From Haloquadratum walsbyi J07HQW2 (GTDB lineage: Archaea; Halobacteriota; Halobacteria; Halobacteriales; Haloferacaceae), in the NCBI RefSeq assembly GCF_000415985.1, contig NZ_KE356561.1, positions 516,956 to 552,025 of the forward strand: 35,070 bases of DNA. Reading direction: 5' to 3'. Position 1 is the first letter of the stretch. Each line of letters begins with the position of its first letter. Below are positions 4,609 to 33,216 of the stretch, piece after piece. The notes beneath the pieces were generated by a model. It searched no databases and was not told the origin of the DNA. It was given only the letters and a program-made list of their open reading frames with translations. The position numbers and the translations under genes are program-made.

Positions 4609-5958
4609 TCACTTTCTGCCGAATCCTAACCCGACCTTCTCGACAGGCGTGATTGTCTTCCCATCTGCTTTGAGTGTCTTGATTGTATTGGAGCTTAATA
4701 CATCGTCGACATATTGTATCTTCCCTTCGTCATTGCCTAAGAATAAGAGCTCGAGATCCCCGTCAGCGTCAATATCGACAGGGGCGACTCCAGCCTTCCG
4801 TGCGACCCCATTCTTGTTCAAAATTGTCTTTTTTCCATCAACTGTAATGAGTGCTGGATTCTGACTCCCATTAATAAATGGAATTCTCGGAATACCATCA
4901 CCGTCAAAATCTGCAGGCGGACCAATTCCACTCCCGTTGTTGCTTCCGACACCTCCTGTTTGGACTTTCTCCGTACTGCCGTCCTGATTGAGGTAGCGGA
5001 TTTCTTGGGATCCATCAAAGAAAATTATCTCATCAGTTCCATCGTTGTCAATATCAGCGACGCCCATCACAGCACTACAGCCGTTGCCGGGCTGAGCGAT
5101 GATTTCAGCATTTCCATCTGGATCGACGCCAGCAATGTTTCCTTGATTACTCTCAGCGAGAATGAGTTTCCCTGACAGGGTTGCTGGTTGCCACTCACCA
5201 ACTGCGATCCGCGTTGGCTTGTTCGGATCAATTTTTGGGTTGGTGCTATTGCTCTTCGGGATTTTTGTATCCTCGTTGTTCCCAACAGTGGTCGCGAAAA
5301 TCCGATTGCTCCCTTCCTTAGTGAGGTATGGAATATCAGCCGTGCTGTCGCCGACGATATCTGCTGTGTCTCCGAGGGCAGATGCAGGTCTGGTCTGTGG
5401 CGGCTCATTGACCGTATCGGCGACTGGGTCGTACACTCTGATGTCTCCATTCGACTGATCGGTCTTGACTGCATAGACGAGTTGCCCCTTGTTCGCTCCA
5501 AGAGAGTCCGATCTGATTGTGAGTTGCCGAGCCACCTGAATATTTGTTCCATTCTCAGGAGACTCTGCAAGGAACTGAATCACATCTGAGACATCGCCAG
5601 TCTGATCGGTGGCGGTGGAGACGGATGTATCTCCACTCTGCCCGGAGTCGGAGTTTAATCTCAGTTGAGATGTGCTGAAATTGAACCGATTGTTTCGGCT
5701 TTGAATCGTCACTTCCAGCGAGCTTTGAGTTCGATTTGTGAGCGTAATCGTCTGGGGTTCTTCAACAACCGTTTGTGAGTCAATCCCCTGAATTCCGAGG
5801 AGTGTGGTTTCACCAGAACCGGCACTCATAGTAGCTGATCGGGTTGTCTCTGCAGAGCTGAATGCGCCTGTTTCACTCGCCCAGAAAACACTCCCTCCGA
5901 TGATCAGGGCGATAGCTCCTCGGCGTGTGTATGACACAGTGATATAGACATACTTCAC
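4609..5958 (-). CDS. Secreted FG-GAP/VCBS-like protein with Ca-binding loops
   Basis: 449 residues. Residues 11-34 (TRRGAIALIIGGSVFWASETGAFSS) form a signal/anchor ending in the TGAFSS signature common in haloarchaeal DUF1102-type secreted proteins. Residues about 66-150 hold a beta-sandwich pattern (TITLTNRTQSSLEVTI) like that of the + strand surface proteins. The C-terminal half carries three DxDxDG-type loops, at about 302-309 (DIDNDGTD), 350-355 (DFDGDG) and 395-400 (DIDADG), each preceding hydrophobic strands (EIIFF, LELLFLG). This is the hallmark of FG-GAP/VCBS beta-propeller repeats that bind calcium and often proteins or glycans. It is convergent with the PKD gene and probably also surface-exposed. 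Ligand unknown. Confidence 0.8.
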   Translation of the reverse strand: MKYVYITVSYTRRGAIALIIGGSVFWASETGAFSSAETTRSATMSAGSGETTLLGIQGIDSQTVVEEPQTITLTNRTQSSLEVTIQSRNNRFNFSTSQLRLNSDSGQSGDTSVSTATDQTGDVSDVIQFLAESPENGTNIQVARQLTIRSDSLGANKGQLVYAVKTDQSNGDIRVYDPVADTVNEPPQTRPASALGDTADIVGDSTADIPYLTKEGSNRIFATTVGNNEDTKIPKSNSTNPKIDPNKPTRIAVGEWQPATLSGKLILAESNQGNIAGVDPDGNAEIIAQPGNGCSAVMGVADIDNDGTDEIIFFDGSQEIRYLNQDGSTEKVQTGGVGSNNGSGIGPPADFDGDGIPRIPFINGSQNPALITVDGKKTILNKNGVARKAGVAPVDIDADGDLELLFLGNDEGKIQYVDDVLSSNTIKTLKADGKTITPVEKVGLGFGRK

Positions 5959-5973
5959 GACTTTTATTGAACT

Positions 5974-5990
5974 TTTTGATTATATCAAAA
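5974..5990. promoter_or_regulatory. Perfect inverted repeat in AT-rich upstream region
   Basis: TTTTGAT (5974-5980), a 3-base spacer and ATCAAAA (5984-5990) lie 16-32 bases upstream of the 5958 start codon (minus strand), inside a very AT-rich stretch (about 5960-6055). The position overlaps where the TATA element should be, so it could be an operator or part of the core promoter. No regulator gene is nearby. Confidence 0.35.
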
Positions 5991-6049
5991 TATAGTGATA
6001 ACATGCAAAAATAATGTAAGATATAGTATATATTATAAAACTGATAACA

Positions 6050-8016: not shown

Positions 8017-8288
8017 TTATTCTCCGCCGACTGTCGACGTGGTTTCGTGCTTCACTGGTAACTCACGTTCATCAAGAACCGCAGCAATCTCCGGAGCGGT
8101 GAGGCTTCCGTGTTCTTCATCTGCATCAAGCAACCGTTGCAGTCACCACGCCCGTATGCCTTCACACCACACATGTTCAGATAATATCTCGCAGCTGCAT
8201 CGAGTGCTTTGCTCCGGGCTTGCTCATCGGTTGCTTCACACAGACTCTCCCAGAGTTGCTCCCAGTCATCGGTTGATTTAATCCTCAT
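8017..8288 (-). pseudogene. Frameshifted small haloarchaeal gene (copy 1)
   Basis: From the ATG at 8288 the frame gives MRIKSTDDWEQLWESLCEAT... to ...KAYGRGD, a helical sequence of about 50 residues. Conceptual continuation in the next frame gives QRLLDADEEHGSLTAPEIAAVLDERELPVKHETTSTVGGE and a TAA at 8017-8019. A diverged copy at 16983-17215 has one extra C at the corresponding point (between 8141 and 8142 here), so a single-base deletion broke this gene. The second half has helix-turn-helix-like composition (LTAPEIAAVLDE), suggesting a small DNA-binding or antitoxin-like protein (inference). Family not identified. Confidence 0.65.
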
Positions 8289-10792: not shown

Positions 10793-11224
10793 TACGCGGT
10801 AGGACATCTGTGTAGACAAATACGTATGTGTGACAATTGCTTAGCACACCAACTGTACTGACCGAACCAACCTGCTCAATCTGTGGCTCACTGTGTGCGA
10901 GATATGCGCCCTGTATCTTGCATACCAGTGCGAATACCAATCCAATTTGATGGGTATCTCACCACTCAATCGACACGTTTGCCGTCGATTGAGACTGATT
11001 CCATGACGTCCTATATTAATATAATATCTGTATAACTCCTCTGGGGAGTCGGGGTTTGTTGTCTGGACCAGTTGCCCCGGTTCCAGGGGCACCCTACGTT
11101 ACCGAGGATTGAGAAGTCAATATCAATATCAGTGTGATACAGTCTTCTTGAGAATCCCGTGCTCGCGCCTGGAAAGTCACCGGTAACCGGTCATCTCGAC
11201 AGAGAGTAAACATACTGGCATGTG
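10793..11224. other. Gene-free stretch
   Basis: Only short overlapping frames on both strands and AT-rich patches are present (for example about 11010-11035). No conserved motif, hairpin or coding signal was recognised. Confidence 0.4.
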
Positions 11225-11590
11225 AGATTCATTCTACAGCAGTTAGATCGGACTGTCTCTGTACACATTACTCAGCGTAGTTTGTGAATGCATTCAGATG
11301 CAGAGTGATTATCTCAATGGGAATAAAGAGGGTGTGACTTTTTTCAGCCACTCGCTATGTGTGTCTCCCTGAGTGGGGAAATGGGAGCTTCCGAGTGTCG
11401 TCTGTCAGTGATCTACACCATAACGACTCAGTGCAGAACACTGCCAGATATACCAAACCGATGAATATTACCATCATTGTCTATCTTCAGAGATTGCAAT
11501 CCTGGCAGATAACGTCACCCTGCGAGTTAAGACAGTCAAGACGACAAAAACACTGACAGCCAGCACATCCCACGCCGTTGTGCGGTTTGT
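11225..11590. repeat. Diverged 360-base repeat, copy 1 (partner 25324-25683)
   Basis: This stretch aligns over its whole length with 25324-25683 in the same orientation. Examples are the shared start GGACTGTCTCTG, a 30-base identical block (11389-11418 and 25476-25505), the shared CAGTGCAGAACACT, and a shared GAGATTGCAATC palindrome. Small indels separate the copies. On the minus strand both copies end in a Cys-rich frame (here CAGCQCFCRLDC...VICQDCNL, stop 11487-11489; there YAGCQCFYYFDY...VICRDCNL). It may be a mobile-element remnant or a decayed duplicated gene. Confidence 0.7.
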
Positions 11591-11917
11591 GTGTTTTTGC
11601 TTGTTGTTCCATACACATAGTAACATAATGTGCATACTGGAGGGGTAAAATATCGGATCCTAAACACACTGACGCGGATCTGTAGCTATCACTATTGAGA
11701 ATAGAAGCTGTCCAGGAGGGCAAATATAACCTCCCAGACTGATCCTATGTTTTCTGACCGCAGTTATGAATGATACAAATTGTCTAGAATCACATGACGA
11801 CCCGCTCACAGTTGATATGACCATATCGACTTGAGTTGGTCGCTGTCAACAATACAGGTATTACATATTAGTTGTGAGCCTACAGCGTCACCTCCACCCC
11901 ACCCCACTATCCGCATA

Positions 11918-12258: not shown

Positions 12259-13349
12259 CTACTGCGAGGTATGAGAAATCAGTTTGACTTCAACACGCTT
12301 GCGACCACAGCATGAACACGATCTTGAAGTATCCCGCTCTAACACGTCCTCAACTGTGATATTCTCCATCTCCGCTTTGTATTCAATCATCAAGATGAAG
12401 CGGTCGGACGCCCACAAGTGCATGTCGAGATTCCCGTGTTTATCCAGTTCTTCCTCCCGCCGGTCTCTTCATCCTCACGGATGCCGGAGAGATTACCCAC
12501 CACGATCGTTCCTAGTTGCTCTTCAACACACCGCTGAACGATGTGCTTCGAGAGGGTGTGGAAGTAGTGGGTGCGGCGAGTGGACTTCTTTTCACTCAGC
12601 CGGGTAGCCTGTATAGAGTCCGAGTCGTCACACCGAGCGATTCGCTCGCTGAAGTAGTAGTCATCCTGTTTCAAGCAGTTGAGTGGGTACAACTCACTGT
12701 GACCATCTTCGTAGGCGAGTGCGGCGAAGGTGTTGATACCAAGGTCAATCCCCACCGTCTTCTCACCCGGGGGCTTCATCGAGGTCGATTTTGACCTTGC
12801 AGACGAACTATAATTCCCACTTGTCGCATGTTCAGACAATCTTGACTTGTTGGACGTTCTCCACCGTGGTAAGATCAACGTCGGGACGGGGTGGTACTCA
12901 CACAGAACGAAGTCTGACCAATACGCTTTAGATTTGATCCTTGTGAGAGTCGAACGCGGTCGTACTGCGTACCGATTTTGAAGCCTTTCTCTTCGAACGT
13001 GACCGTGCTTCGTGGGTGCTCGTCGCTGTGTTTGCGGTAGCCGGGCGGGTTCGTTTTCAAATCTCCGTTTCGTCGGTTGCCGTACCAACTGTTGAACGCT
13101 TCAGCGAGTTCTTGAGGGACTCGCTGACTTGACTGTGAATGCAGGTCATCATAGTGTTCGTGGGTTTGAGGCACGGTGAGTTCGTTGTAAGTGGGGGTTG
13201 GTCGATTTGATCCCAGAGCCGGCTTCAGGTCCACCGTCCGACGTTTCAGAGCTTCGAGGCAGCGAACCTAAGCGAATCGAGGTCGTCTTGCACTCGAGAC
13301 TGGTTCCGTATGAAGCAGTATAGGTGCGTGTGACGACTTGTTTCGCCAT
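12259..13349 (-). pseudogene. Degenerate IS1341-type TnpB (transposase-associated nuclease), C-terminus lost
   Basis: From the ATG at 13349 (MAKQVVTRTYTAS) homology can be followed through several frames: THEHYDDLHSQSSQRVPQELAEAFNSWYGNRRNGD, NPPGYRKHSDEHPRSTVTFEEKG, SDFVLCEY, the RuvC-I motif GEKTVGIDLGINTFAALAYEDGHSELYP, RRTHYFHTLSKHIVQRCVEE, GTIVVGNLSGIREDEE (RuvC-II Glu), and HGNLDMHLWASDRF...DTSRSCSCCGRKR (first half of the zinc ribbon). The reading then runs off into unrelated sequence (TAG at 12259-12261). The second zinc-ribbon pair and RuvC-III are missing. Multiple frameshifts make it inactive. A left-end hairpin lies upstream (13445-13485); no right end was found. Confidence 0.85.
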
Positions 13350-15916: not shown

Positions 15917-16054
15917 TACTCGGATTATATAAAGATCGGTCGCTCACAGGCTCCCGTATATTGGTGACGCGTATACTGGGATCTCGGTTATTGACTGTGA
16001 GTATCACTCATAATTAATCGATTAGAAAAAACAACAGAAATTATACAGAATCAA

Positions 16055-16666
16055 GAAGAATACCTGCGCCTTTACCCGCAGGACAGATAGATAGGATGAA
16101 TCCGACACCCGAGTAACAGTCCACGGTGTGATAGCCAGCCCGAGATGTCACCATCCATCGTTTCAAGCGGCAGGCAATCATTCTGAAAGAGACGAATCAA
16201 GCCAGAATAGAGTGATTCTGCTGAATCCTCCGATGGCGGCCTGCCCTGCCCCGCCCCGCCCCAAGCCACCAAGCAAGCAATAATCGAATCGGACCCAGTC
16301 GATAACCAGCGTATTCTCACAGAATACGACTCGACTGGACTTGACTGGACTGACTGGAGTTGACTGCTGGAAGCACAACTCACAGGAACTCCGAGTCCGT
16401 GTCCGTTGAGGTCTGCTGGACGCCCCGAGGCAAACCCAACTCTGGGAGTCCGCATATGACGGAGGATAGGAGTGGAGTCCCGGGGGCGGGGCTGGGGCTT
16501 GGCACTCCCATCGCCAGCAGTCCCACTACACTCTATCCGCCACAGTCCACGGGCATCCCTTCAGATTCTTCCTGTCTGGATGCTCGGTGGGACTGCGAAC
16601 CTGAAATCTCCAACACTCACACTCACGCTCAGGATTCCTCCGCCTAAAAGCGGAGGAGGATGTCAA
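16055..16666 (+). mobile_element. tnpB-less IS1341 derivative (MITE-like)
   Basis: It begins with an LE hairpin (GAATACCTGCGCC-tttac-CCGCAGGACAG...GGATGAATCCGAC, 16055-16106) and ends with an RE hairpin (GGATTCCTCCGC-ctaaaa-GCGGAGGAGGATGTCAA, 16632-16666), both in + orientation. The 610-base interior has no open tnpB. Near the right end, GGACTGCGAACCTGAAATC matches the 3' flank of the degenerate tnpB at 23567-25219 (reads GTANLKS against ETANPQI), so the RE-proximal tnpB tail is retained. The interior also contains GC-rich patches and short tandem-like GACTGGACTT runs (about 16325-16365). Confidence 0.65.
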
Positions 16667-16982: not shown

Positions 16983-17215
16983 TTAACATGATTGTTGATC
17001 GTGCTTACTTACCGATGAGCGTGTCTTATATTCAACGGGTAACTCCCGCTCATCGAGAATCGTAGCAATCTCGGGCGCGGTAAGTGATCCGTGCTCGTCG
17101 GCTGCATCAAGCAACCGTTGCACGTCACCACGTCGGAGTCGAACACCACCGATAGTGCGTAATCGCCCGGTTCGGACCCGTCGTACGCAAGTAGTATTTC
17201 AAATATTGCACAACA
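16983..17215 (-). pseudogene. Decayed copy 2 of the 8017-8288 small gene
   Basis: Minus-strand reading gives GVRLRRGDVQRLLDAADEHG, then SLTAPEIATILDERELPVEY, then KTRSSVSKHDQQSC and a TAA (16983-16985). This aligns with the second half of the 8017-8288 gene but keeps the frame where that copy lost a base. Upstream, a KYYLRTTG piece in another frame corresponds to ARYYLNM of copy 1, and the N-terminal half is absent. It is therefore truncated and frameshifted on the opposite side. Confidence 0.6.
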
Positions 17216-20028: not shown

Positions 20029-21410
20029 GGGTGGGGCTTGTCAGTGGCCTCTTCCTCTAACCCAAACCGACCTCGCGGCTGGTTTTGGTATGAGAGTGTA
20101 TCTCTCAACTCGGAGTCCTAGGCCCTGACTTTAGAGCGTATTGACTGACGCTCCTCCTACGAGACGGCTGATGGCCTCGTAGGAGATACAATTCTGCAAT
20201 ATTCTTAGCAGCATTATAGTCAGCGTGGTTCTGATTTCCACATCGCTGACATTCGAACTCGTCTCGATGTCGGTTATCATCTCGAACACTTCCACACTCG
20301 TTGCATCGCTTGGAAGTGTTCTTTGGGTTCACCGTATCCACGAACACGCTTTCCTCTTCAGCTTTGTACTCCACAAACTTCTTGAGCTTGCGGAAAGCCC
20401 ATATCGAATGCCAGTCAGCATATGGAAGGTCATCTCGAATACCATCGAGTTTCTCGAAGATAATGCCATCACAATCGTGTTCAACAGCTTCTCCGATAAT
20501 CCCGTTTGCCACAGAGTGCAGTACGTGCTTCACATATTCGTCTTCTCGACCGCTCACCTGCTGTAGAGTTCGGTGAGCGGATTGCTTACCACACTTTTGA
20601 AGCTTGCCACGAGTCTCCTCAAACTCTCTGCGAACGTGATTGAGTTTGCCTGCGCTGAAGAAGCGAGCCGTGCTGGTGACGGCGATTTGGTTGACTCCGA
20701 GGTCAACACCCAGAACCGTTCCGTTCTGCGTCGTTGCCTCTGGTTCAGGCTTCTTCTTTCGATAACCAAGATGAATGTACCACTCGCCGTCTCTGTGGTG
20801 TAGCGTGGTTTCAGTGTACTCCCACTCATCGTCGTTCAAGTACTGGTATTGGTATCCATCCTCGTTGTTTGGAAGTGCGAGGTCTGCCCTGACACGAGAA
20901 TGGCCACCAAGTACGGTGAGAGACACCTGCTCTTTCTCAGGAAACACGGTGAGCGTTCGTCTATCATACGTGATAGACTTCGAGGTGAAGTGTGGTTGTG
21001 TTGCTTTCTTGCCCTTTTTTCGTCGTTCGATGCAGCTTTGGATGCTACTGGCGACCTCGTGACAGGCAAGAATGGAGTGCTGACTCCCCAAATTAGTCTC
21101 TTCCTCTACTGTGCCTTTCGCTACTTTTCTGACACCAGACTGAGAGTGTTCGTTCTCCCACGCAAGGTTGGATGCAATGTTGCACCCGTCGAGCCACTCT
21201 TCGACAGTCGCTTGGAGTAGCTCATGGTCTTTTTGAGAGAGTCCGTCGAGTCGTGTAATAGCAGTTCGACGGTGGTACTCATCATCTAATGCCATCGTAA
21301 TTTCATAGAAGTACCACTAATTGTTGAAACCTTGGTTGTTTCCGTACTGGTAGACGGTTTCCTCCCCTCCCTACTCTCTCGGCTTCGCCTCGTTCCTTGA
21401 GGAAGGGGAC
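19985..21410 (-). mobile_element. IS1341-type element (tnpB only), apparently complete
   Basis: The right end lies at 19985-20036, with stem CCCCACCCT/AGGGTGGGG. The left end lies at about 21364-21409 (CCCCTCCCTACT...GAGGAAGGGG); both ends share CCCC(A/T)CCCTACT. The only gene is an intact tnpB, with no tnpA, as in IS1341-type elements of the IS200/IS605 family. The left boundary is approximate. It inserted into the 3' end of the gene at 19711. Confidence 0.7.
20105..21295 (-). CDS. tnpB: TnpB RNA-guided nuclease (IS200/IS605 OrfB), intact
   Basis: 396 residues with the full domain order. An N-terminal helical region (1-110) is followed by a beta-rich region to about 180. The RuvC-like nuclease has Asp198 in LGVDLGVN, Glu281 in IIFEKLDGIR and Asp359 in NHADYNAAKNIA. 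A zinc ribbon sits between RuvC-II and III (Cys331, Cys334, Cys349, Cys352). All three catalytic acids and all four Cys are present, so it could be active. Characterised TnpB proteins cut DNA using an omega (re) RNA made from the tnpB 3' region and right end, here 19985 to about 20150. No TnpA is present, so the element could move only in trans. The start is the ATG at 21295. Its subgroup differs from the other, degenerate tnpB copies in the window. Confidence 0.9.
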   Translation of the reverse strand: MALDDEYHRRTAITRLDGLSQKDHELLQATVEEWLDGCNIASNLAWENEHSQSGVRKVAKGTVEEETNLGSQHSILACHEVASSIQSCIERRKKGKKATQPHFTSKSITYDRRTLTVFPEKEQVSLTVLGGHSRVRADLALPNNEDGYQYQYLNDDEWEYTETTLHHRDGEWYIHLGYRKKKPEPEATTQNGTVLGVDLGVNQIAVTSTARFFSAGKLNHVRREFEETRGKLQKCGKQSAHRTLQQVSGREDEYVKHVLHSVANGIIGEAVEHDCDGIIFEKLDGIRDDLPYADWHSIWAFRKLKKFVEYKAEEESVFVDTVNPKNTSKRCNECGSVRDDNRHRDEFECQRCGNQNHADYNAAKNIAELYLLRGHQPSRRRSVSQYALKSGPRTPS

Positions 21411-23566: not shown

Positions 23567-25219
23567 TTGACATCCTCCTCCGCGTAACTGCGGAGGAATC
23601 CCACGGCACCACACCGCTGCACTCCGCTGGATTGGGATCTGAGGGTTTGCAGTCTCCCACTTCAGTTGATCCTGCGGTTGGAATCCACTGGACAAGTCAT
23701 GGAGGGAGACGTCAGGCTGTGCCAACCAGCCCAGCCGGGACTCCTCTCTTCACCCACACTGGGCGGAGACTTGGAGTTACGTTGGTTTACGTCGAGGCGG
23801 ATGTTCTCCGCCCCCGCCCCATGTCCATTCACGTCCGCGTTGAACGCCGCATCGCATTCCTCGCAGACGTACAACCCGGCGTTCAACACGTCACGTCACG
23901 CTGACTCTCGTCTTCTCTCCCTCTCCCACACATACAACACGTCATGTCTTGCTCGTGTCGTGTCACGCTCAGATACGTCCATAACCTCGATACCGATACC
24001 CTCGACCTTCGCCTTGTACGTGAGACTCGATCTGAAGCGGTCAAACGCCCAGCCATGTAGATCAAATCAAGGTTCCTGTGCCGACCCCAGTTCTTCGCTT
24101 GGCCATCTTCATCCTCACGAGCGCTCTCTAAATCGCCGACGTTGAGACGACCAACACCCCACCCCGCTCGACACAGTTCTCGACGATATGCTTAGCGAGA
24201 CCATCGAAGAAGTGGGTGCGGCGCTCCGACCACGTCACGTCTTGTGTAGCCGAGTCGCTTTGGGACCGCCTGACTCGTCGCAGCTGGCGATCTCTGTCGG
24301 AAAGTAGTATCCGTACCTATCCTGTGTGAGGCGATTGCCGGGGTAGAGGTCAGCTTCCTCGGTACTGTACGCAACTGCCGCGAACTGACAGATGCCGAAC
24401 CGAGGTCAACACCAGCCGACTCGGGACCGGGAGCATCGGGTGTCTCGACTTCATGTTTACACACTCACTGCAGTGCAGCTCCCACCAGCCCAGCCCATTG
24501 CCTCGTCATAGACGGCACGAACCTGCTGAAGGTTCTCGATGGTGATGCCGGGGCGTGTCTCGTATTCACAGAAGATGTACTCCCACGATCGTGGGTATTC
24601 GGTGTGATTTGCGCCCTTCGAGAGGCGTATTCGATTGGTTGTGGTATCGTGACGGATACCTTTCTGCTTCCACGTCACCGTCGATCGCGGGTGTTCTTCA
24701 TGGACGCGGTTGCCCTCGTCTCGTTGTCGGAGTAGTTTTGCTTGCGGTAGCCGGGCGGATTGTCCCTGTCGTCATCGGAGCCGTCCCACGACACGAGTTC
24801 GAGTTGAAGGCTTCAGCGAGTGCTTCCAGAACGCGCTGACTGGACTGTGAGTGGAGTCGTTTGTACGTGGTGTGGGCTGGGGCTTCAACTCGCGTTTCAG
24901 GACCGAATCATCAGGAATCTCGCCTGTCTCGTCCCAGACTTCTCTGGAGTGGTAGTTTGCGACGTTCCAGAGTTTCGCTGCACTCCATCCATGCCGGTCG
25001 AGCATCTCAGCCACTTGTGAGTGGGTGAGGATTGTCGCTCGGCAAGTACGGTGGATGTGCATTCGTGGAAGGCTCCATAATGAGTTATCGAACAGTATAT
25101 GCTACAGAGTCGGATTTCGAACGGAGAATATCCAGGAGTGTCGTCGGCAGTGGCTCGTGGGAACGTTGTCGGATTCATCCTGTCCTGCGCCTGAACTGAA
25201 GGCGCAGGTATTCTCCTCG
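23567..25219 (-). mobile_element. Degenerate IS1341-type element with both ends
   Basis: The right end is at 23567-23602 (TTGACATCCTCCTCCGC-gtaact-GCGGAGGAATCCC) and the left end at 25168-25219 (GTCGGATTCATCCTGTCCTGCGCC...GGCGCAGG...TTCTCCTCGT). The 1.65 kb size matches a full tnpB-only element. It shows what the three shorter LE-RE elements in the window derive from. Confidence 0.7.
23680..25062 (-). pseudogene. Degenerate TnpB with many frameshifts
   Basis: Starting at 25062 (MHIHRTCRATILTHSQVAEM, then SAAKLWNVANYHSREVWDET), TnpB homology continues in shifting frames: LHSQSSQRVLEALAEAFNSN, DRDNPPGYRKQNYSDNE, HPRSTVTWKQKGIRHDTTTN, EYIFCEYETRPGITIENLQQ, a RuvC-I-like SAGVDLGSA and LYPGNRLTQDRYYFP, then HDTSKTCCVCGREGEDESQR (zinc ribbon) and a C-terminal LAQPDVSLHDL region. 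There are many frameshifts and stops, so it is inactive. Same subgroup as the 12259-13349 pseudogene, different from the intact 20105 TnpB. Confidence 0.8.
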
Positions 25220-25323
25220 TCTCTGTATAATGACAGTGTCGAAACGAAGGCATAGAACTGAGGACTGTGTGAGGGAACAGCCGGTGCTATAGCTCAATTC
25301 GAAAAGTAGATATCCTGCATTAT

Positions 25324-25683
25324 GATGGGATTCATTCGACACACTTCGATCGGACTGTCTCTGCACAGATCACTTCCCGCAATTGTGTGAGTGATCGTCT
25401 CAGGGGGAACAAACCAGGTGTGACTTGTTCTCTCTCAGCCACCCGTCATGTGCCCCCTGAGTGGGAAATGGGAGTTTCCGAGTGTCGTCTGTCAGTGATC
25501 TACACTGGTCATAACTCAGTGCAGAACACTAATAAATATATTACACCGATGAATCTTATAATTATTGCCTAGTCTCAGAGATTGCAATCTCGGCAAATAA
25601 CGTCACTCTGCAAGCTTAGATAGTCAAAGTAATAAAAGCACTGACAGCCAGCATACGTCGCGCTGTTGTGTGCTTTGAGTATC
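25324..25683. repeat. Diverged 360-base repeat, copy 2 (partner 11225-11590)
   Basis: Same-orientation partner of 11225-11590; see that entry for matched blocks. It lies between the left end of the degenerate IS and the helicase stop. In the + frame the copies share NSVQNT and PMN (25516-25560 here); in the minus frame they share AGCQCF and VICxDCNL. Substitutions are not concentrated at third codon positions in the minus frame, so present-day coding is unproven. Confidence 0.7.
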
Positions 25684-25750
25684 TCTTTCAGAAGCCGCTG
25701 GAGTCCTGTCAGACTACGAGTGGGAGACAGGTATATCAGCGCCAACGTAT

Positions 25751-27970
25751 TTACACTCCGAGGAATGCCGGGTCGACGTTGTTTAGCCGACCGGTCGATT
25801 CGAAGTAGTTCCTGAGGTCTCGGTAGAGTTCCGTACACTTCCCATCAGTGTCGTATCTGAGGGTGTGAAAGTCAGCAACGACGGCACAGTACTGCTTGGC
25901 TCGAGTGAGAGCAACATTGAGCCGTCGCGGTCCGTCATCAGGGCGACCGAGGAAGCCGATGTCACCGTCAGCATTACTTCGAACAAGCGAAATGATGACA
26001 GCAGTCTTTTCGCTCCCTTGGAAGGAATCGATGGTGTCGACAGTGATCGAATTCGCGTGGTCGGTATGATCTTGCAGGAGGTCACGGAGGAGTTGAGCAT
26101 GGGCAGCATACGGTGTAATGACACCGATATCTTCCGGTGGGACATCTTCGAGGATGGTTTGGACAAGATGGATGACAAGGTGTGCCTCAGCCTCGTTAGC
26201 CCGCGAGTGATTGACGATATCGACTGAGCCACCGATATTGTACCCTTCGATCGCGAGTGTATCAGCAAGCGGGGTGACGACTCGACCGGTTCGCAGCGAC
26301 CCATCGTAGAACTCGCGGTTAGAGAAGTAGGCAATATCGGGGTGCATCCGATATTGGGTCTTCAGTTGCAGACCAATCCCTTCGTAGACGCCGCCATCAG
26401 CGTAGAGGTGTTCAAACAGTGAGAGCCCATATCCAGAGTCGGGTGGATTGTCTGTTGCACTGAACGGCGGGAGCTGTTGGTGGTCACCCGCAAGGACAGC
26501 TCTATCGGCGCGAGCAAGTGGAATACACGACGCGGTGCAGGTCGATTGCGTCGCTTCATCAAGAACGAGGAGGTCGAATTCACGAGCGAGTGTAGCCGCA
26601 CTGCTGTTGGTCGCTGCGACAACTTCAGCTCTCTCGGCAACATCCTGATAACCCTTTGTGAGGACGTCATTTGTCGACCGATTGGCGTTGACGCGGTCAA
26701 GAGTGAACTCCCTAGACCCGTACTGTCCGTAGGCATGGAGTGACTCAGTATCGGGATCGTCTTGTGTCGAGTTACCTGCGACAAGGTTGTCCAACGCTTG
26801 ATTTGAATCCGTACAAACGAGCACGTCCTCGCCAGCGTCGACGGCTCGACGGATGATTTCGACGAGTGTTCTTGTCTTCCCGGTGCCCGGCGGACCGTGA
26901 ATACAAAAGAGCTCATCAGCGAGAAGGGCATACTCAACAGCGAGCTGCTGCTCCTGATTAAGATCCTTATCAAACGATTCGCTAATTGCGGCAGCCTCAT
27001 TCGAGAATGTAAGCGGGCGGTCGCCGACAAGCACCTCGTGGAACGGGTCATTCTGTAAGGACTCGATAGCGGTGCACTCGCGATCGAATGGAACTGGATT
27101 GAGCCGTTCAGAACACCCGGTTGTATGACCGCTCTCCAAGTACGCGCTGACTGTTCCCGTAATATCGACGGTCTCCCACTCAAGCGTGAGCCAGATATTC
27201 AGCCCACGGACGCGCTCAACCTGCGCAGCGACTGGGAAGGACTCAGGTGCATCATCGGAGTCTGCGTGGATCAAAACCTCATTGTCTTCGTAGATACCAA
27301 ACTCATTCTCAACAAAGAAGGACCAATTATCGTCGCGACAGTCCTCTAACTGTGGATCGAGATCGACCCGAAAACGATACTCGCCACTTTCCTCGCCACG
27401 ACACATCAATTGTGGAATGGCAGATTCGCCGCGTTCGTATAGCGCTCGTGCGGAGTGGTTACCGGCTCGAGCCTCGTTACTGGCTCTCGTTGCTGCGCGC
27501 TCATCGGCAACATAGTTCTGAAACTCCGCGAGTAAGTCGCCATCTTTGACTGGGTGTTTCGGATCTTCGTGGTCATCAATCGGAGCGTCGTACCCTGGTG
27601 GGTACATTTCTGGGAGATAATCCGAATGCCAGAACCGAATACGATTCGCGAGTTGTGTGCCTCCAAACTCGTCAGCAGCAATTGGTTTTACATCGCCATC
27701 CTGCTTGACGAGAAAAATCTCGCCACGCACCTTGTGGTCGACGTAGGCCACGAACTTTGCGGTTGGCGTCGCAGTATCAGACCCGTGTAATGGGATACAG
27801 GTCCACCCCCGGTCAGGATGAGTGAGTTTGTCGTGATGGCTCGCAAATGTGGCGATAGGACGGACGGGAATATCATCTCCTTTCTCAGAAAACGCCGTCT
27901 CGGAGACAGTATGGAGGGTAGCGTCAACAATCGAAAACTGATCGATAGCATACTCGAACAGCAGGGACAT
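25751..27970 (-). CDS. DNA2/NAM7-like superfamily 1 helicase
   Basis: 739 residues with the complete SF1 (UPF1/DNA2-like) motif set: motif I GPPGTGKT (359-366), II DEAT (471-474), III GDHQQLPP (495-502), IV-like QYRMHP (539-544), V SFQG (649-652) and VI RRLNVALTRAK (682-692). These are the AAA_11/AAA_12 helicase halves. Residues 1-330 form an N-terminal region with beta-rich patches (FVAYVDHKVRGEIFLVKQDG), not recognised, which could bind nucleic acid. It probably unwinds DNA or RNA with ATP; such proteins work in replication/repair or RNA metabolism, and related ones occur in defence loci, but no defence partner is adjacent here. The start at 27970 has a TATA box at leaderless spacing. Confidence 0.9.
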   Translation of the reverse strand: MSLLFEYAIDQFSIVDATLHTVSETAFSEKGDDIPVRPIATFASHHDKLTHPDRGWTCIPLHGSDTATPTAKFVAYVDHKVRGEIFLVKQDGDVKPIAADEFGGTQLANRIRFWHSDYLPEMYPPGYDAPIDDHEDPKHPVKDGDLLAEFQNYVADERAATRASNEARAGNHSARALYERGESAIPQLMCRGEESGEYRFRVDLDPQLEDCRDDNWSFFVENEFGIYEDNEVLIHADSDDAPESFPVAAQVERVRGLNIWLTLEWETVDITGTVSAYLESGHTTGCSERLNPVPFDRECTAIESLQNDPFHEVLVGDRPLTFSNEAAAISESFDKDLNQEQQLAVEYALLADELFCIHGPPGTGKTRTLVEIIRRAVDAGEDVLVCTDSNQALDNLVAGNSTQDDPDTESLHAYGQYGSREFTLDRVNANRSTNDVLTKGYQDVAERAEVVAATNSSAATLAREFDLLVLDEATQSTCTASCIPLARADRAVLAGDHQQLPPFSATDNPPDSGYGLSLFEHLYADGGVYEGIGLQLKTQYRMHPDIAYFSNREFYDGSLRTGRVVTPLADTLAIEGYNIGGSVDIVNHSRANEAEAHLVIHLVQTILEDVPPEDIGVITPYAAHAQLLRDLLQDHTDHANSITVDTIDSFQGSEKTAVIISLVRSNADGDIGFLGRPDDGPRRLNVALTRAKQYCAVVADFHTLRYDTDGKCTELYRDLRNYFESTGRLNNVDPAFLGV

Positions 27971-27992: not shown

Positions 27993-28000
27993 TTATATAA
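27993..28000 (-). promoter_or_regulatory. TATA box of the helicase gene
   Basis: TTATATAA on the minus strand is centred 26 bases before the ATG at 27970, placing the transcription start at about the first codon. This is a leaderless transcript. Confidence 0.55.
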
Positions 28001-28463
28001 CGCTTGGTCGCTATTCGTGAGTCATCAAGCCCTGCTGCGGAATACGTATTATCACCGCGGTCAGCGTCGATCGGTTCATCACAATAGTTGAGGCTGACCG
28101 TCTCAATGTATAGCATCTTCGACTTCCTCGTGGTCAAGCCTGCGGTAGCCATCGCATCATCTGCCATCAGATGGATGATTGTTCGATCCGCCGTCTTAGC
28201 ACCCTTGTTATTCAGACCTCGCCAATCTGGTGACTATGGTTATCCAAACGAGACGAACTGGCGGATACGTATCTCATCAATATTGGAGTATTGGGACTCG
28301 ACTCAACCCGTCGAAACAAATAACAGACTTTGAGAAGACCCGGCGTTCCTGACGACTTCACTGCTCCTCAAGGATGCCATAGAACTTGCTAATGATATCC
28401 CATCCCACCCCATCCCGTCCATGATGACAAGCAAACGCCATGGAAGTAATATTGTGTAAAGTA
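28001..28463. other. Stretch with a possible decayed minus-strand frame
   Basis: No intact gene. A minus-strand frame from a stop near 28250 to 27979 reads SPDWRGLNNKGAKTADRTII, then HLMADDAMATAGLTTRKSKM, and continues coding-like to SRIATK. It has no good start (an ATG at 28167 is internal) and its end overlaps the helicase promoter, so it is probably a remnant. The rest shows nothing. Confidence 0.3.
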
Positions 28464-28984
28464 TTAGCTTATCTGTATGGGATCACCTATCGCGCGACGA
28501 GACAGCTCAAAGCCAAATTTTTCATAAGCTTGAGAGCATGATCGTTCCCCATGTCGACCTCAAGTTCGAGCTTGTCACAGTCGTTTTGATGACCCCATAT
28601 TTCTCTTCGTTCAATTAGGTTTTGAGATAACCCAGTGCTACGGTAGAACTCTTTGACATAGATATCGCAGATGACGAGCCGATCAGGACGACCGAAAACA
28701 GTCGGCAACTCCGTAATGTCGGTCGCAATGAATCCAACAAACTCACCCCCAGCACTGGCAAGATTATCCTCGTCGTGATCGCCGTCGATAGCAACCCACG
28801 CTCGGTAACTTGCAGACTCATGGCGAGTAAGTCAATACTCAAGTTCCTCCATGACGATATCAGTGGTCTCGGCGAGTGAGAAGTCTTCGACAGTCTCTTC
28901 AAATTCACGATTATATGGAAGCTACAAATTCTCGATGTAGCGACGGATTGCCGCCCCATCAGCAGGAAGTCTGCAAATATTCAT
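28464..28984 (-). pseudogene. GNAT-family acetyltransferase pseudogene
   Basis: From the ATG at 28984: MNICRLPADGAAIRRYIENL, TAG stop, LPYNREFEETVEDFSLAETT, then IVMEELEY, TGA stop, LTRHESASYRAWVAIDGDHD, AGGEFVGFIATDITELPTVF, RPDRLVICDIYVKEFYRSTG, LSQNLIERREIWGHQNDCDK and LELEVDMGNDHALKL. A one-base shift then continues as YEKFGFELSRRAIGDPIQIS and stop (28464-28466). The VCDIYV-x-EFYRSTGLSQNLI acetyl-CoA-binding-like segment and ALKLYEKFGFE end are characteristic of GNAT N-acetyltransferases. Two in-frame stops plus a missing T near 28510 mark it as dead. The otherwise unbroken frame suggests recent decay. Substrate unknown. Confidence 0.8.
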
Positions 28985-29130
28985 GTCTATGTATCGGAGT
29001 CGTGTGGTTTTGTATTGTTGTTTCGAGTTGACCGAGACACGCGCTGTATCCAGAATGACACGTAATGAACGCCCGTCTGACTCTGTTGAAATCCTCAGAG
29101 GGATACAACTTCGATCATTACTGTAGCCAA

Positions 29131-29700
29131 ATGCAGGCCCTCCGAAGTCGCCGTTACTCCGGTCCGTCGAGCAGGCTTTTCACTTGACTCGATAAATTGT
29201 CGCTCGCTACTTTTCAATATTTTCGAAACGACAATACACACTCCACCAACACATTGTCCTGCTCTGCCCAAGATACAGAAGAATACGACATACCGCACGC
29301 TTCTTGAGGAACTTACCGAAATGCCTCGGATTCGGAGAGCAATTGAGCTTGAAGAACTCCCTTCTCCTTCGGCGTTGTGTAAGGCGCTCGATACGGCAAT
29401 CTGGCGTGTCCGACTCAACCTTTCGGTCACATTCCCTCCGACCAGCGGTATCGTCAGTGTTGATGCATCTGGTTTCGACCGTAGTCACGCCTCGAAGCAC
29501 GACACGAGAGCGAATGCTATCCTCGATTTCCACGTAACGACGACCAGAAGATTCGCGCGTTAGCCCGCGAAGATGGTGTTCGTCCGCTCACAGAACTGTT
29601 TCCACGATTTCCGTGGGCTCGCTGTTAGTTGTCTTACTCACAACACCGACAAGACACTCTGAACGTTAGATTCGTTGTTTATTATCGGAAATATCATACT
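29131..29700 (+). pseudogene. IS5-type transposase remnant
   Basis: Recognisable pieces follow one another: MQALRSRRYSGPSS (29131), LATFQYFRNDNTHSTNTLSC, then EMPRIRRAIELEELPSPSAL, CKALDTAIWRVRLNLSVTFP, PTSGIVSVDASGFDRSHASK (with the first DDE-type Asp in VDASGFDR), DTRANAILDFHVTTT and later IRALAREDGVRPL. Internal pieces are deleted (between ASKH and DTRAN, and after VTTT), and TGA stops interrupt the N-terminal part. This is the usual order of haloarchaeal IS5-family DDE transposases. No terminal inverted repeats were identified, so the element's ends are uncertain. Confidence 0.75.
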
Positions 29701-29724
29701 CAACCACTTCGTGGAACTGCGTAG

Positions 29725-30114
29725 ATGTCCCGCTTGAACCGCACATTATCTGCCCTCCGTACCAGAGAATCAGTCAAAGACAAATGGTGGGTTAGTCTGA
29801 TAGTTCCGTATTTGATGCTTGGGCTCCAGTTGCTTGCTATAGTGATACTGGAACCCTCGGACTACCCTTCTTTGAGTGCGTATGTCTGGGTGGCTCGATT
29901 CCTTTCTGTAGGCTTCTTCATCTCTCTCGCGATTGCCATCGTAGGACTGTACTTTGACATAATCTACGTCGCGGAGTCTTCCGACTGGAAACCATCGATG
30001 TGGTACTCGTTGATGTTCTTTATGCCTGTTGTCGGCGTGATTATCGGTCTATACTACCTCTACAGGCGGAGTCTATATGTTGGGCTATCTCTGGCTCCTT
30101 CTCCACAAGCATAG
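29725..30114 (+). CDS. Small multi-spanning membrane protein
   Basis: 129 residues. A basic N-terminus (MSRLNRTLSALRTRESVKDK) is followed by three to four hydrophobic segments: near 22-44 (WWVSLIVPYLMLGLQLLAIVI), 52-80 (VWVARFLSVGFFISLAIAIV) and 95-115 (MWYSLMFFMPVVGVIIGLYY), then YLYRRSLYVGLSLAPSPQA. Short loops and the ending YLYRR-xYVG are familiar from uncharacterised haloarchaeal membrane proteins. Role unknown. It lies just downstream of the IS5 remnant. No clear TATA was identified. Confidence 0.7.
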   Translation: MSRLNRTLSALRTRESVKDKWWVSLIVPYLMLGLQLLAIVILEPSDYPSLSAYVWVARFLSVGFFISLAIAIVGLYFDIIYVAESSDWKPSMWYSLMFFMPVVGVIIGLYYLYRRSLYVGLSLAPSPQA

Positions 30115-30422
30115 GTATGAGATTCTTCGGGGACGAACCTCGATAATTGACCGTTTTGGGGTCAGCATCACACCACACCCGCAGGTGTGGGCGACTCTCA
30201 GTCCTCCCGATGTTTTGTTTTTGCTTTTTCGTGAGGAGTCGGCTGGAGGTGGACACCCGAACACCCGCTGTGCTGTGTCCGTGGGAGTGGGAGTCGGTCG
30301 CTCCACTACGACCCGACAACTCCCGTCCCCGTCGCATCGCCAGTGACCGATTGTGAGAGGAGTCGTATTTTCAAGCCCACCCTATCGCAGCCAGCACTGA
30401 ATTAAGATTATAGAGATTCAAT
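30115..30422. other. Gene-free GC-rich stretch
   Basis: GC-rich in its middle part. Only overlapping frames without motifs; no gene, terminator or repeat recognised. Confidence 0.35.
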
Positions 30423-30937
30423 GAGAATCCCTGCGTCTGTCGGCGCAGGACAGGATAGGACAGGATAGGCTGAATCCATTATCAGCACAGCTAAAAAACT
30501 AGATAACGTGACGTGTGTTGGAACAAGGTCAGGTCGGAACGGAGCGATTCCGACCGACTTTCGGAGGCGGTCTCTCCGCCAGTAATGAGACAGTATCCGA
30601 AACGCTCACCGATGGATCACGCAGGCGAGAAGCCTGTGTCTGTGTCTGTGTCCGTGTCAGTGAGTTGAGTTGAGAACACAACCGATACCTCTACCTCCGA
30701 GTCTGCCGACGTGTCACTGACTCGCTGTTGGCAAACCAAACATAACAGCAGTGAATCAGTGACACTGAGGATACAAGAGGAGTAACGGTAGTCTGGCACT
30801 GCCAGTCAGCCAGCCACTGATCACGATGGCTGGGTGAGATGCGTTCCCGTAAAGTGACAGCAACCATGGTTGCAAACCTGCAATTCCTAACGCTCGGGAT
30901 TCCTCCCGTCTTCAGTTCAGGCGGAGGAGGATGTCAA
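30423..30937 (+). mobile_element. tnpB-less IS1341 derivative (MITE-like)
   Basis: Left end GAGAATCCCTGCGTCTGTCGGCGCAG followed by tandem GGACAGGATA units and GGCTGAATCC (30423-30478); right end GGATTCCTCCCGTC...GGCGGAGGAGGATGTCAA (30897-30937). Both are in + orientation and match the ends of the 23567-25219 element. The roughly 430-base interior shows no tnpB motif and differs from the 16055-16666 interior. It includes a (GTCTGT)-type simple repeat near 30635-30660 and inverted GCTGG/CCAGC patches near 30805-30830. Deletion derivative or chimeric MITE. Confidence 0.6.
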
Positions 30938-31905
30938 TAATTCGTCCGTGAGGTTCTCTAGCTATATATTTTTACTATTAGACGGCGTGATAACAGCGTA
31001 TGCCGGTTTTACTTCAGGGTCAACTCCCGGCTCCAAGACACTCGCCTTGCTATCTGTAGATTTACCACATATCCAGCTGCTGCTCGAGTAGAAACCCGAA
31101 CGGGCGAACAATTGTATCCAGCCAGATATCCCGTCAGATAGTGGCGCTATCCGAAGAGAATACGATATCAGTGGTCATGTCCTTTTGTCTTTGAGGTGGA
31201 TACAAAACGTACTCCACATGTCTTTAGCCAAGAGACGCAACGCACGACAGCAGTGGTTTGTTGAGGGTCCTCTTCAATAGAAATGAAGAAATGACAAGCA
31301 CCATTTCGATGAAGATGCCATGTTTGAGTGATCGTATCAGGAAGTGTTCCGCTTGTTGCTACGTTGGGATCTCAGGGCGGAGATATAAATGAGACAATTG
31401 ACCTTCTTAGGTGGGCTGACGAATCAGCCGAGTAGCGTGGAATTGGCACGATTACACGGGTGTCCGTGAACCTCAGGAGAAATCCACACGACCTCTCGTA
31501 GGTCCGTGACATAATGAGCAGCGGTGAACTCCCGTCCGCCGGAATCATGTTTGCGAGCGCGGTGCTGTTGTTGCTTCTCGACGGTCACGCTGATGTGCTT
31601 GGGTTCGAATCTACGTGGATCGACGATAGAACCGAACGAACGTAACTGTGCAACGACGTTTACGAGCATCTAGAGGAAATTAAACAGGTTGCCGAGACAC
31701 TCAGAGAAGTCATCCTCCGTGCTCAGGAAGCGATCTTAATCTTAGGAGATTGAGAACAGGTGATTACAACGTCGAAATTCACACAACTGCATCGTGGGCG
31801 CTTGCCCAGCTCAACGAATGAGGATGGTCTTGACATTTCGCTCGTTAGTTCACACGGAGAGCTTGCTGGTGCAGAATCATATGACAGGGAGTATATTATG
31901 AATTT
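30938..31905. other. Nearly 1 kb without an intact gene
   Basis: Only coding-like scraps. On + strand, a frame ends GDINETIDLLRWADESAE with a stop near 31427. Another, after a TAA at 31643, reads LCNDVYEHLEEIKQVAETLR, then EVILRAQEAILILGD to a TGA at 31751-31753. On the minus strand, 31424-31669 gives an 81-residue frame (MLVNVVAQLRSFGSIVDPRR...) without recognisable motif. These suggest the remains of lost genes; nothing else was seen. Confidence 0.35.
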
Positions 31906-33216
31906 ATGACAATTTAACGTAACGCAGAAGGGTGTCTCCTTGGGTTAATTTGTGATGACGCACTAGATCAACCAGTCGAGTTTAAAACCGCCGAGAAGAT
32001 CAACTCCCAGCATGGCGAAGTGACGGAGATGCTCGGTCACGGCACCTATGATCACCCACCGGGAACAATCACTACCGACAGTGAGATGCCGCTCTGTATC
32101 GTGGAGAGTCTCGTCGACCGCCGCGGGTTCGATCCGTCCAATGTAGCGAAGCAATTCGTCGACTAGCTCGATTCTGATCCGTTCGATATCGGACTGATGA
32201 CGCGCGATTCTCTGTCTCAGATTAGACAGGGAGCGCCGTGGGACGACGCTGGCGTGGGCATCTGGAAATCGCGTCCAGAGGGTTCTAATGCCGGCAACGG
32301 GATCGTAATGCGGTGTGCACCACACGGCGATCGCAGTTCGACATTTCGATGCGGAGCTCACTCGAGTCAGTCAGCTGTTATCGGCGGTCACACATGTCGA
32401 CCCGCGCTGTCGGTGAGGATGTGTGATTCTCAACCAGACGCTCGCAAACCTGATTCGCGACGAACGCGACCCACTTGGAACCGCGTTAAGAATACCTACT
32501 CAGCTCCAGATGAACTTCGAACAGCAGTTACGCAGGTGCAGGAAGTCATCACTGGCGACCGCGACTCAGCAGCGTTTGAATCCCAACTCGCGACCTCTGG
32601 ATGCATCCTCGACTCGCTTCAGGCTGGGATCCACCACGGTGTGACTGCTTAGTCCGCCGAAAGAGCAATTATTCAGGCTGTGAATAGTGATGGCGATACG
32701 GACACTGTCGGTGCGATTGCCGGCGCCGTCGCTGGTGCCCGATTCGGCTCGACTAACATACCAAATCGATGGATCGAAGAGATCGAGGAACCTGCCCGTC
32801 TCAAGCGATTAGCACAGCGATTGTTGACAATCCGGATGCAGATCCCCAGTAAAGAGTATACGACTATTGATGATGGGACCCTCGTTTTCAAGAGACGAAC
32901 TATCGATGGACCTGCGTATGTTTCCGCTCGGGAATTTCAGGAGGCGACCATTGGACACCGTCCTCATCCTGCGCCACATCGCACTATCAGGACCACTTCC
33001 CACAAGCTGACGCCAGCGACAGCTGCGATGCTCGACTGGGAACGGGGAGCGTGCGCGGTCGATAGTGATCGATCTTCCACCTGCGCTGCCCCACAGATCG
33101 ACCTCGATGAAGAACCGGGCTTCTCGCAGCCGACGCTTGTCCCTGTGCCGCAATATCCGTTCGTCGACACCTTCGATGAGCTCCCCAAAACAAGATCAGC
33201 GACGGATCAAGCGTGA
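31906..33216 (+). pseudogene. ADP-ribosylglycohydrolase (DraG-like) pseudogene with C-terminal extension
   Basis: The ATG at 31906 starts MTI, then TAA (31915-31917), then RNAEGCLLGLICDDALDQPV, EFKTAEKINSQHGEVTEMLG and HGTYDHPPGTITTDSEMPLC. A TAG follows at 32164, then LDSDPFDIGLMTRDSLSQIR and EGSNAGNGIVMRCAP. The frame then shifts (VTHVDPRCR...GCVILNQTLANLIRDERD), returns at about 32490, meets a TAG at 32650, then reads SAERAIIQAVNSDGDTDTVG, AIAGAVAGARFGSTNIPNRW. DSEM and DGDTDT are the metal-binding motifs of DraG-type ADP-ribose hydrolases. With three in-frame stops and two frameshifts it is non-functional. After about 32835 the frame stays open for 125 codons with unrelated sequence (a tail or a second fused gene). 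Confidence 0.8.

Follow-up and report, generated by a model that had tools for sequence, protein, structure and literature searches.

Two strains of Haloquadratum carry 528 and 536 mobile elements, and elements lacking a transposase (PATEs, MITEs and SMRs) far outnumber the transposons among them, according to the available part of Dyall-Smith et al. (2011, PMC3119063). Repeat-mediated deletions are described as frequent in the same text. In RNA-seq of strain HBSQ001, intergenic regions, chiefly UTRs, accounted for 16.5-17.2% of the reads (available part of PMC5496347). The repeat reported here is not mentioned in that part, and the supplements for C23 and HBSQ001 may list parts of it. The words 'repeat' and 'intergenic' do not occur in the main text of the Lake Tyrrell genome paper (PMC4330952), as far as that text was available.

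We analyzed a window of 35,070 nucleotides, positions 516956-552025 of the 3.59-Mb single-contig genome of Haloquadratum walsbyi J07HQW2 (label G000), which contains a repeat pair, copies A and B. Compared with PATEs, MITEs and SMRs as characterized in the available part of PMC3119063, A and B are alike in being short, transposase-free, probably non-coding, dispersed and associated with palindromes. They differ in that there are only two full copies, about 26% divergent and without terminal inverted repeats or defined ends, and in that their modules occur separately and not as one unit. The deletion scars treated in that part of PMC3119063 would explain fused 5' and 3' gene flanks whose interval has gone, but for A and B a full and a deleted allele of one site were not found, nor was a short direct repeat established at the junction. 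The minus-strand reading of copy A also resembles the small one-domain zinc-finger proteins of haloarchaea in its short length and clustered Cys pairs, but the A/B frame lacks a codon pattern and Cys conservation, and its third copy is frameshifted.

The repeat pair and its setting

The two copies were delimited as follows.
11223-11592, no strand assigned: composite repeat copy A (blastn against copy B)
25326-25680, no strand assigned: composite repeat copy B (blastn against copy A)

A and B are direct repeats about 14 kb apart with 74.1% identity over 379 columns (blastn, E 1e-62 to 1e-63; 2.4e-62 when searched in the own genome). The preliminary description had presented them as an alignable pair in the same orientation with a 30-base identical block; both statements were borne out, and its ends were right within 3 bases. 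The 30-base run (A 11389-11418) is the longest identical one. A run of this length had p = 0.0046 when the alignment columns were shuffled, therefore identity between A and B is mildly clustered. It is also uneven, with values of 0.38 and 0.43 in the 40-column steps starting at A 11317 and A 11297, and beyond the limits of A and B windowed identity drops on both sides. A gene-poor setting had been claimed for both copies, which is fair for A, but a helicase frame of 739 aa stops 71 bases before copy B.

A third full-length copy was found neither in 147 genomes (at most four candidates scored per genome) nor, with copy B as query, in the 17 genomes of the genus. The pair had been said to match no known element, and no Rfam family matched the window at the gathering cutoff. 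With E values of up to 5 admitted, two scans of the regions around A and B each returned one below-cutoff match, and a known RNA was rejected. A phage or plasmid element was likewise rejected, as 11225-11600 had no match among plasmids and phages (blastn) and the M1 pattern described below was absent from viral contigs.

Modules of the composite and their other copies

Four modules were recognized in both copies.
11193-11287, plus strand: M1 in copy A, core GATCGGACTGTCTCTG, with six close copies in the own genome, one in J07HQX50 and one in J07HQW1
25302-25387, plus strand: M1 in copy B (M1 copy searches)
11289-11357, minus strand: M2 in copy A, with homology to sequence 5' of a GLUG-repeat gene
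25389-25435, minus strand: M2 in copy B, 79% identical over 47 nt to locus L017 of J07HQX50
11371-11440, no strand assigned: M3 in copy A, the best conserved A-B stretch
25459-25528, no strand assigned: M3 in copy B (A-B alignment and model hits)
11547-11588, minus strand: hairpin-forming core of the 'Cys' module in copy A (hairpin alignment)
25635-25676, minus strand: hairpin-forming core of the 'Cys' module in copy B, outer stem AAAGCAC/GTGCTTT

Further copies were sought with sequence models built from the copies that they score best, so that only their other hits count as new evidence. The modules were detected separately in the genus, while the full-length unit, with all modules, was present only as A and B in the searches made.

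M1 was present in three of the 17 genus genomes, J07HQW2 (six close copies, A and B among them), J07HQX50 and J07HQW1. The six close core copies of J07HQW2 all lie on the plus strand between 297 and 586 kb, which is 8% of the chromosome. The model detected one more M1, degenerate but clear, on the opposite strand at 2,240,802 (E 8.6e-7); matches from E 0.0115 upward were not counted. The exact core pattern occurred in two records among genome contigs, both from Haloquadratum (the window's own possibly left out), and in none among viral contigs. The sequence upstream of M1 in copy A is repeated as well: two further loci match 10985-11276 at about 90% identity, and the tile to the left of M1 (10891-11200) occurs in J07HQX50 without M1.

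The gene context of M1 could be assigned at some loci. In J07HQW1 (L018), M1 lies 3' of a DUF5518 gene (Pfam E 5.9e-9), and in J07HQW2 (L013) 3' of a counterpart similar to that gene. At L016 and L017 it lies 3' of another frame, judged by eye to encode a small membrane protein. At L013/L018 and L016/L017, M1 is thus preceded by a gene of the same strand; these are two pairs of corresponding loci and therefore represent two contexts only. The neighbours of M1 in L014 and in copy B differ or lack a clear gene context. L013 and L012, which lie about 207 kb apart, share a region of 582 bases at 98% identity (L012 4545-5121, L013 4632-5209) and a further 308 bases at 99.7%, a recent duplication.

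M2 was traced to GLUG-type genes. The copy A module was 85% identical over 55 nt to L017 and 75% over 72 nt to L015, a locus at 558 kb of the own genome. The M2-like sequence of L015 lies just upstream of a GLUG-repeat gene (Pfam Glug, E 3.4e-19), and that of L017 upstream of a GLUG-type frame; along 395 bases these loci match at 89% identity. In L017, M2 (4821-4875) is followed by the GLUG-type frame from 5018 and by M1 at 5941-6033. The order and orientation of M2 and M1 are the same as in A and B; in L017 they are separated by about 1.1 kb that includes gene sequence, and this intervening part is missing from A and B. About 410 bases of the interval are masked, and the readable remainder consists of the GLUG-type start and then sequence matching L016. 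No match to M3 or to the 'Cys' module was found beside M2 in L017.

In M3, A and B agree at 42 of 43 positions (11376-11418). M3 was detected in another Haloquadratum genome, G012, at 1362660-1362717 (78% over 57 bases, E 8.7e-5 per genome), and the model added weaker copies in J07HQW1 (E 1.7e-5) and G012 (E 7.9e-4). Matches from E 0.042 upward were left uncounted, though L141, L148 and L149 have the M3 core by eye. Among the seven M3 loci inspected, no common gene neighbour was found.

The 'Cys' module overlaps the Cys-rich frame treated below, and its hairpin is kept in five copies. The own genome contains a third strong copy near 619,002-619,092, with 83% identity over 58 nt (E 5.9e-9). Two of the five are weak model hits, L151 (E 7.7e-4) and L158 (E 0.011); the latter was included since it resembles L151 along 280 bases, and matches from E 0.09 upward were not counted as copies. 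This 280-base region (L151 1456-1730, L158 1457-1731; J07HQW1 and J07HQW2) is 72% identical and contains the hairpin upstream of unrelated frames, one secreted and Thr-rich and one pentapeptide-like (named by eye).

Origin of the composite

Read on the minus strand, A and B consist of the 'Cys' hairpin module, M3, M2 (a GLUG-type 5' flank) and M1 (found in 3' flanks of membrane-protein genes). We regard it as probable (about 0.68) that the pair is a non-coding composite of short Haloquadratum repeat modules in which the Cys frame is fortuitous, a real but ordinary structure. Modules that occur separately in Haloquadratum would have been brought together once. The composite would then have been copied to a second site 14 kb off, with both copies drifting since, and no product would be made from the Cys frame. 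The 30-base identical run and the invariant columns of the M1 core suggest some constraint.

Because M2 and M1 have the same order and orientation in J07HQX50 with gene sequence between them, A and B can also be read as scars joining the flanks of a lost gene. The sequence between the 5' and 3' flanks may have been removed, for example by a repeat-mediated deletion. Since the L017 interval is partly masked, its readable right part matches L016, and M3 and the 'Cys' module are absent there, the gene loss is something we infer, and we hold it as a tentative part of the reading. An intact ancestor with the 'Cys' module, M3, M2, the gene and M1 together was not found in the searches made.

Relation to mobile elements

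Several dispersed repeats surround A and B.
11676-11875, no strand assigned: dispersed tile adjoining copy A, 86-87% identical to 115284-115476 and 212774-212936 of the own genome
25167-25231, no strand assigned: palindrome-bearing dispersed piece adjoining copy B, PATE/IS605-like (by eye from the description in PMC3119063)

The spacer 28000-31950 gave 50 matches elsewhere in the own genome (40 of 110 candidates scored). Among the candidates scored, 27 of the 50 fell in an element of about 530 bases, 30408-30937. This element is PATE-like by eye, with at least four near-full copies at 86-90% and many partial copies in the genome. An uninterrupted 396-aa TnpB-like frame with OrfB_IS605 and Cas12f1-like TNB domains (Pfam) lies at 20105-21295, and decayed tnpB relics (by eye), unlike this unbroken frame, lie at 12390-13234 and 24168-24856. 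The window contains a second direct repeat pair, 8054-8150 and 17035-17132 (83%); by eye its members are pieces of a small paralogous gene family, with similar peptides apparently in L062. Since the genome is rich in dispersed repeats, a two-copy repeat with 26% divergence is unremarkable there.

The preliminary description had raised an uncharacterised mobile element. In its developed form, A and B would be an old element without a transposase, such as a PATE, MITE or SMR, or else the degenerate end of an IS605-type element, with the 'Cys' hairpin and the M1 3' hairpin as subterminal palindromes and an IS605-type transposase that once moved the unit. We consider this unlikely. Such elements are very common in Haloquadratum (available part of PMC3119063), tnpB relics lie near both copies, palindromic pieces are present, and 25167-25231 beside copy B weakly matches 30407-30456, the end of the 30408 element, besides an inverted match to 16040-16107. 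However, the modules occur independently, and the 28000-31950 search did not return A or B among the 40 of 110 candidates scored. Inverted repeats joining the two ends, which a MITE or SMR would have, were not found in scans of 11150-11700 and 25290-25720. PATEs have palindromes near both termini and spread as a unit; A and B have hairpins in the 'Cys' module and at the M1 3' end, with termini that cannot be defined, and only two full copies in the 147 genomes, at most four candidates being scored in each. No empty site was seen in the one comparison made, in which the 3' end of the helicase gene was set against the homologue in J07HQW1 (protein identity 66%), and as the sequences downstream of the helicase stop are unrelated, the repeat boundary cannot be set from it. 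Thus the 360-base unit gave no sign of moving, while the earlier view of a real repeat made of dispersed, decayed material stands.

Possible regulatory or RNA functions

It is quite improbable that one or more modules are functional cis elements or small RNAs, the 'Cys' hairpin, the M1 core with its hairpin in 3' flanks, or both being selected while the rest drifts. The arguments for it come from the hairpin, from M1, and from the intergenic, mostly UTR, share of HBSQ001 reads in the available part of PMC5496347. Over the five hairpin copies, pairing was seen in 93.1% of 58 cells (L151 and L158 are set one base off at their ends in the alignment, so two outermost-pair cells are missing from the count), compared with 34-47% when the partner is slid, and there is one double change, G-C in B and A-U in three copies, unpaired in A. 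However, 204 of 500 shuffles reached this percentage paired and 101 of 500 the covariation score, so covariation gives no support for the hairpin. Folding of twelve larger pieces gave z-scores of -1.4 to 1.4, except for -2.7 at 25385-25525 of copy B (minus strand), and the equivalent place in A had -0.46; as noted, Rfam had no match at its cutoff.

For M1, the core has 11 successive invariant columns in eight copies, a palindromic piece able to form a hairpin lies at its 3' end, the module follows same-strand genes in two contexts, and recognizable similarity between L013 and L018 stops immediately to the right of it. Against this, M1 is 0.78-0.86 identical between L016 and L017 (50-base steps), which lies within the range of their flanks (0.66-1.0), and the surroundings of M1 at L014 and in copy B, like those of M3 in general, vary or are ambiguous. 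By this comparison the conservation of M1 does not clearly exceed that of its flanks. The corresponding loci gave a mixed picture, and M1 as a constrained 3' element was not supported.

A related idea, to which we give at best the same low credence, is that the modules (the 'Cys' hairpin, the 70-base M3 and the M1 core) are genus-specific cis elements in the 5' and 3' flanks of surface- and membrane-protein genes, acting in RNA-level control or as shared flanks for the exchange of gene cassettes, with A and B as empty slots of these cassettes.

The Cys-rich frame

The Cys-rich frames that cross the 'Cys' module are as follows.
11487-11723, minus strand: Cys-rich frame of copy A, 78 aa from TTG, judged to be no gene
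25575-25838, minus strand: corresponding frame of copy B, 87 aa from GTG, with Tyr at three of seven aligned Cys

On the minus strand both copies have a short frame with a common stop, A ending in CQCFCRLDCLNSQGDVICQDCNL and B in CQCFYYFDYLSLQSDVICRDCNL, and they have in common an in-frame CQCF...C(Q/R)DCNL. The frame of copy B overlaps the helicase frame in a different reading frame. In coding DNA, substitutions favour third codon positions. Between A and B, the 20 differences in the 93-nt frame were distributed as 5, 9 and 6 over codon positions 1, 2 and 3, and those in 380 alignment columns as 23, 30 and 26. In the 36-nt core of four copies (L158 included), counts summed over six pairs were 8, 28 and 14, the second position varying most. 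A check for dominance of synonymous changes had been proposed; these counts gave no codon pattern. The NG86 estimate (dN 0.21, dS 0.45) leans slightly towards constraint, with a ratio below 1 on 20 differences, too few to weigh.

The cysteines are not kept either: three of the seven in A are tyrosine in B, and in the 619-kb copy an indel shifts the frame ahead of the last CxDC, so that the frame is broken in the one other strong copy, for which the refuting outcome named in the preliminary description (a broken Cys frame in all other copies) thus came true. The conserved Cys-rich frame of the preliminary description therefore did not hold up. Pfam gave no hit for the 43-aa C-terminal part of the copy A frame, and a protein search of 60 genomes, the own genome included, gave no convincing homologue. 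Outside the own genome the best match, L021 from a genome of the same genus, had E 0.045, and its alignment of 27 residues matched four of the seven cysteines. Because each E-value refers to a single genome and the search covered 60, hits of this size are expected by chance. A TFB-like protein (identified by eye) scored less well, at E 0.2. A peptide common to L151 and L158 was also rejected, as the differences are not codon-like (four-copy count with L158; L151 against L158 by eye), L151 would require a frameshift and the similarity continues beyond the stops.

That the frame belongs to a decaying family of small, Cys-rich proteins resembling zinc ribbons is nearly refuted, as the shared motif and stop and the L021 alignment are set against a frame with neither the codon-level constraint nor the cysteines kept in all copies that a small zinc-finger gene would have. 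The Cys-rich 'protein' is most likely an accident of sequence.

Implications for Haloquadratum spacers

As a composite of non-coding modules, the repeat pair is explained without a new protein. It shows a way in which the long spacers of Haloquadratum can form, as tiles made of older repeat fragments and of the flanking sequences of genes. Should A and B be gene scars, they would record the loss of surface-protein genes in an archaeon that is among the commonest in salt-saturated brines.
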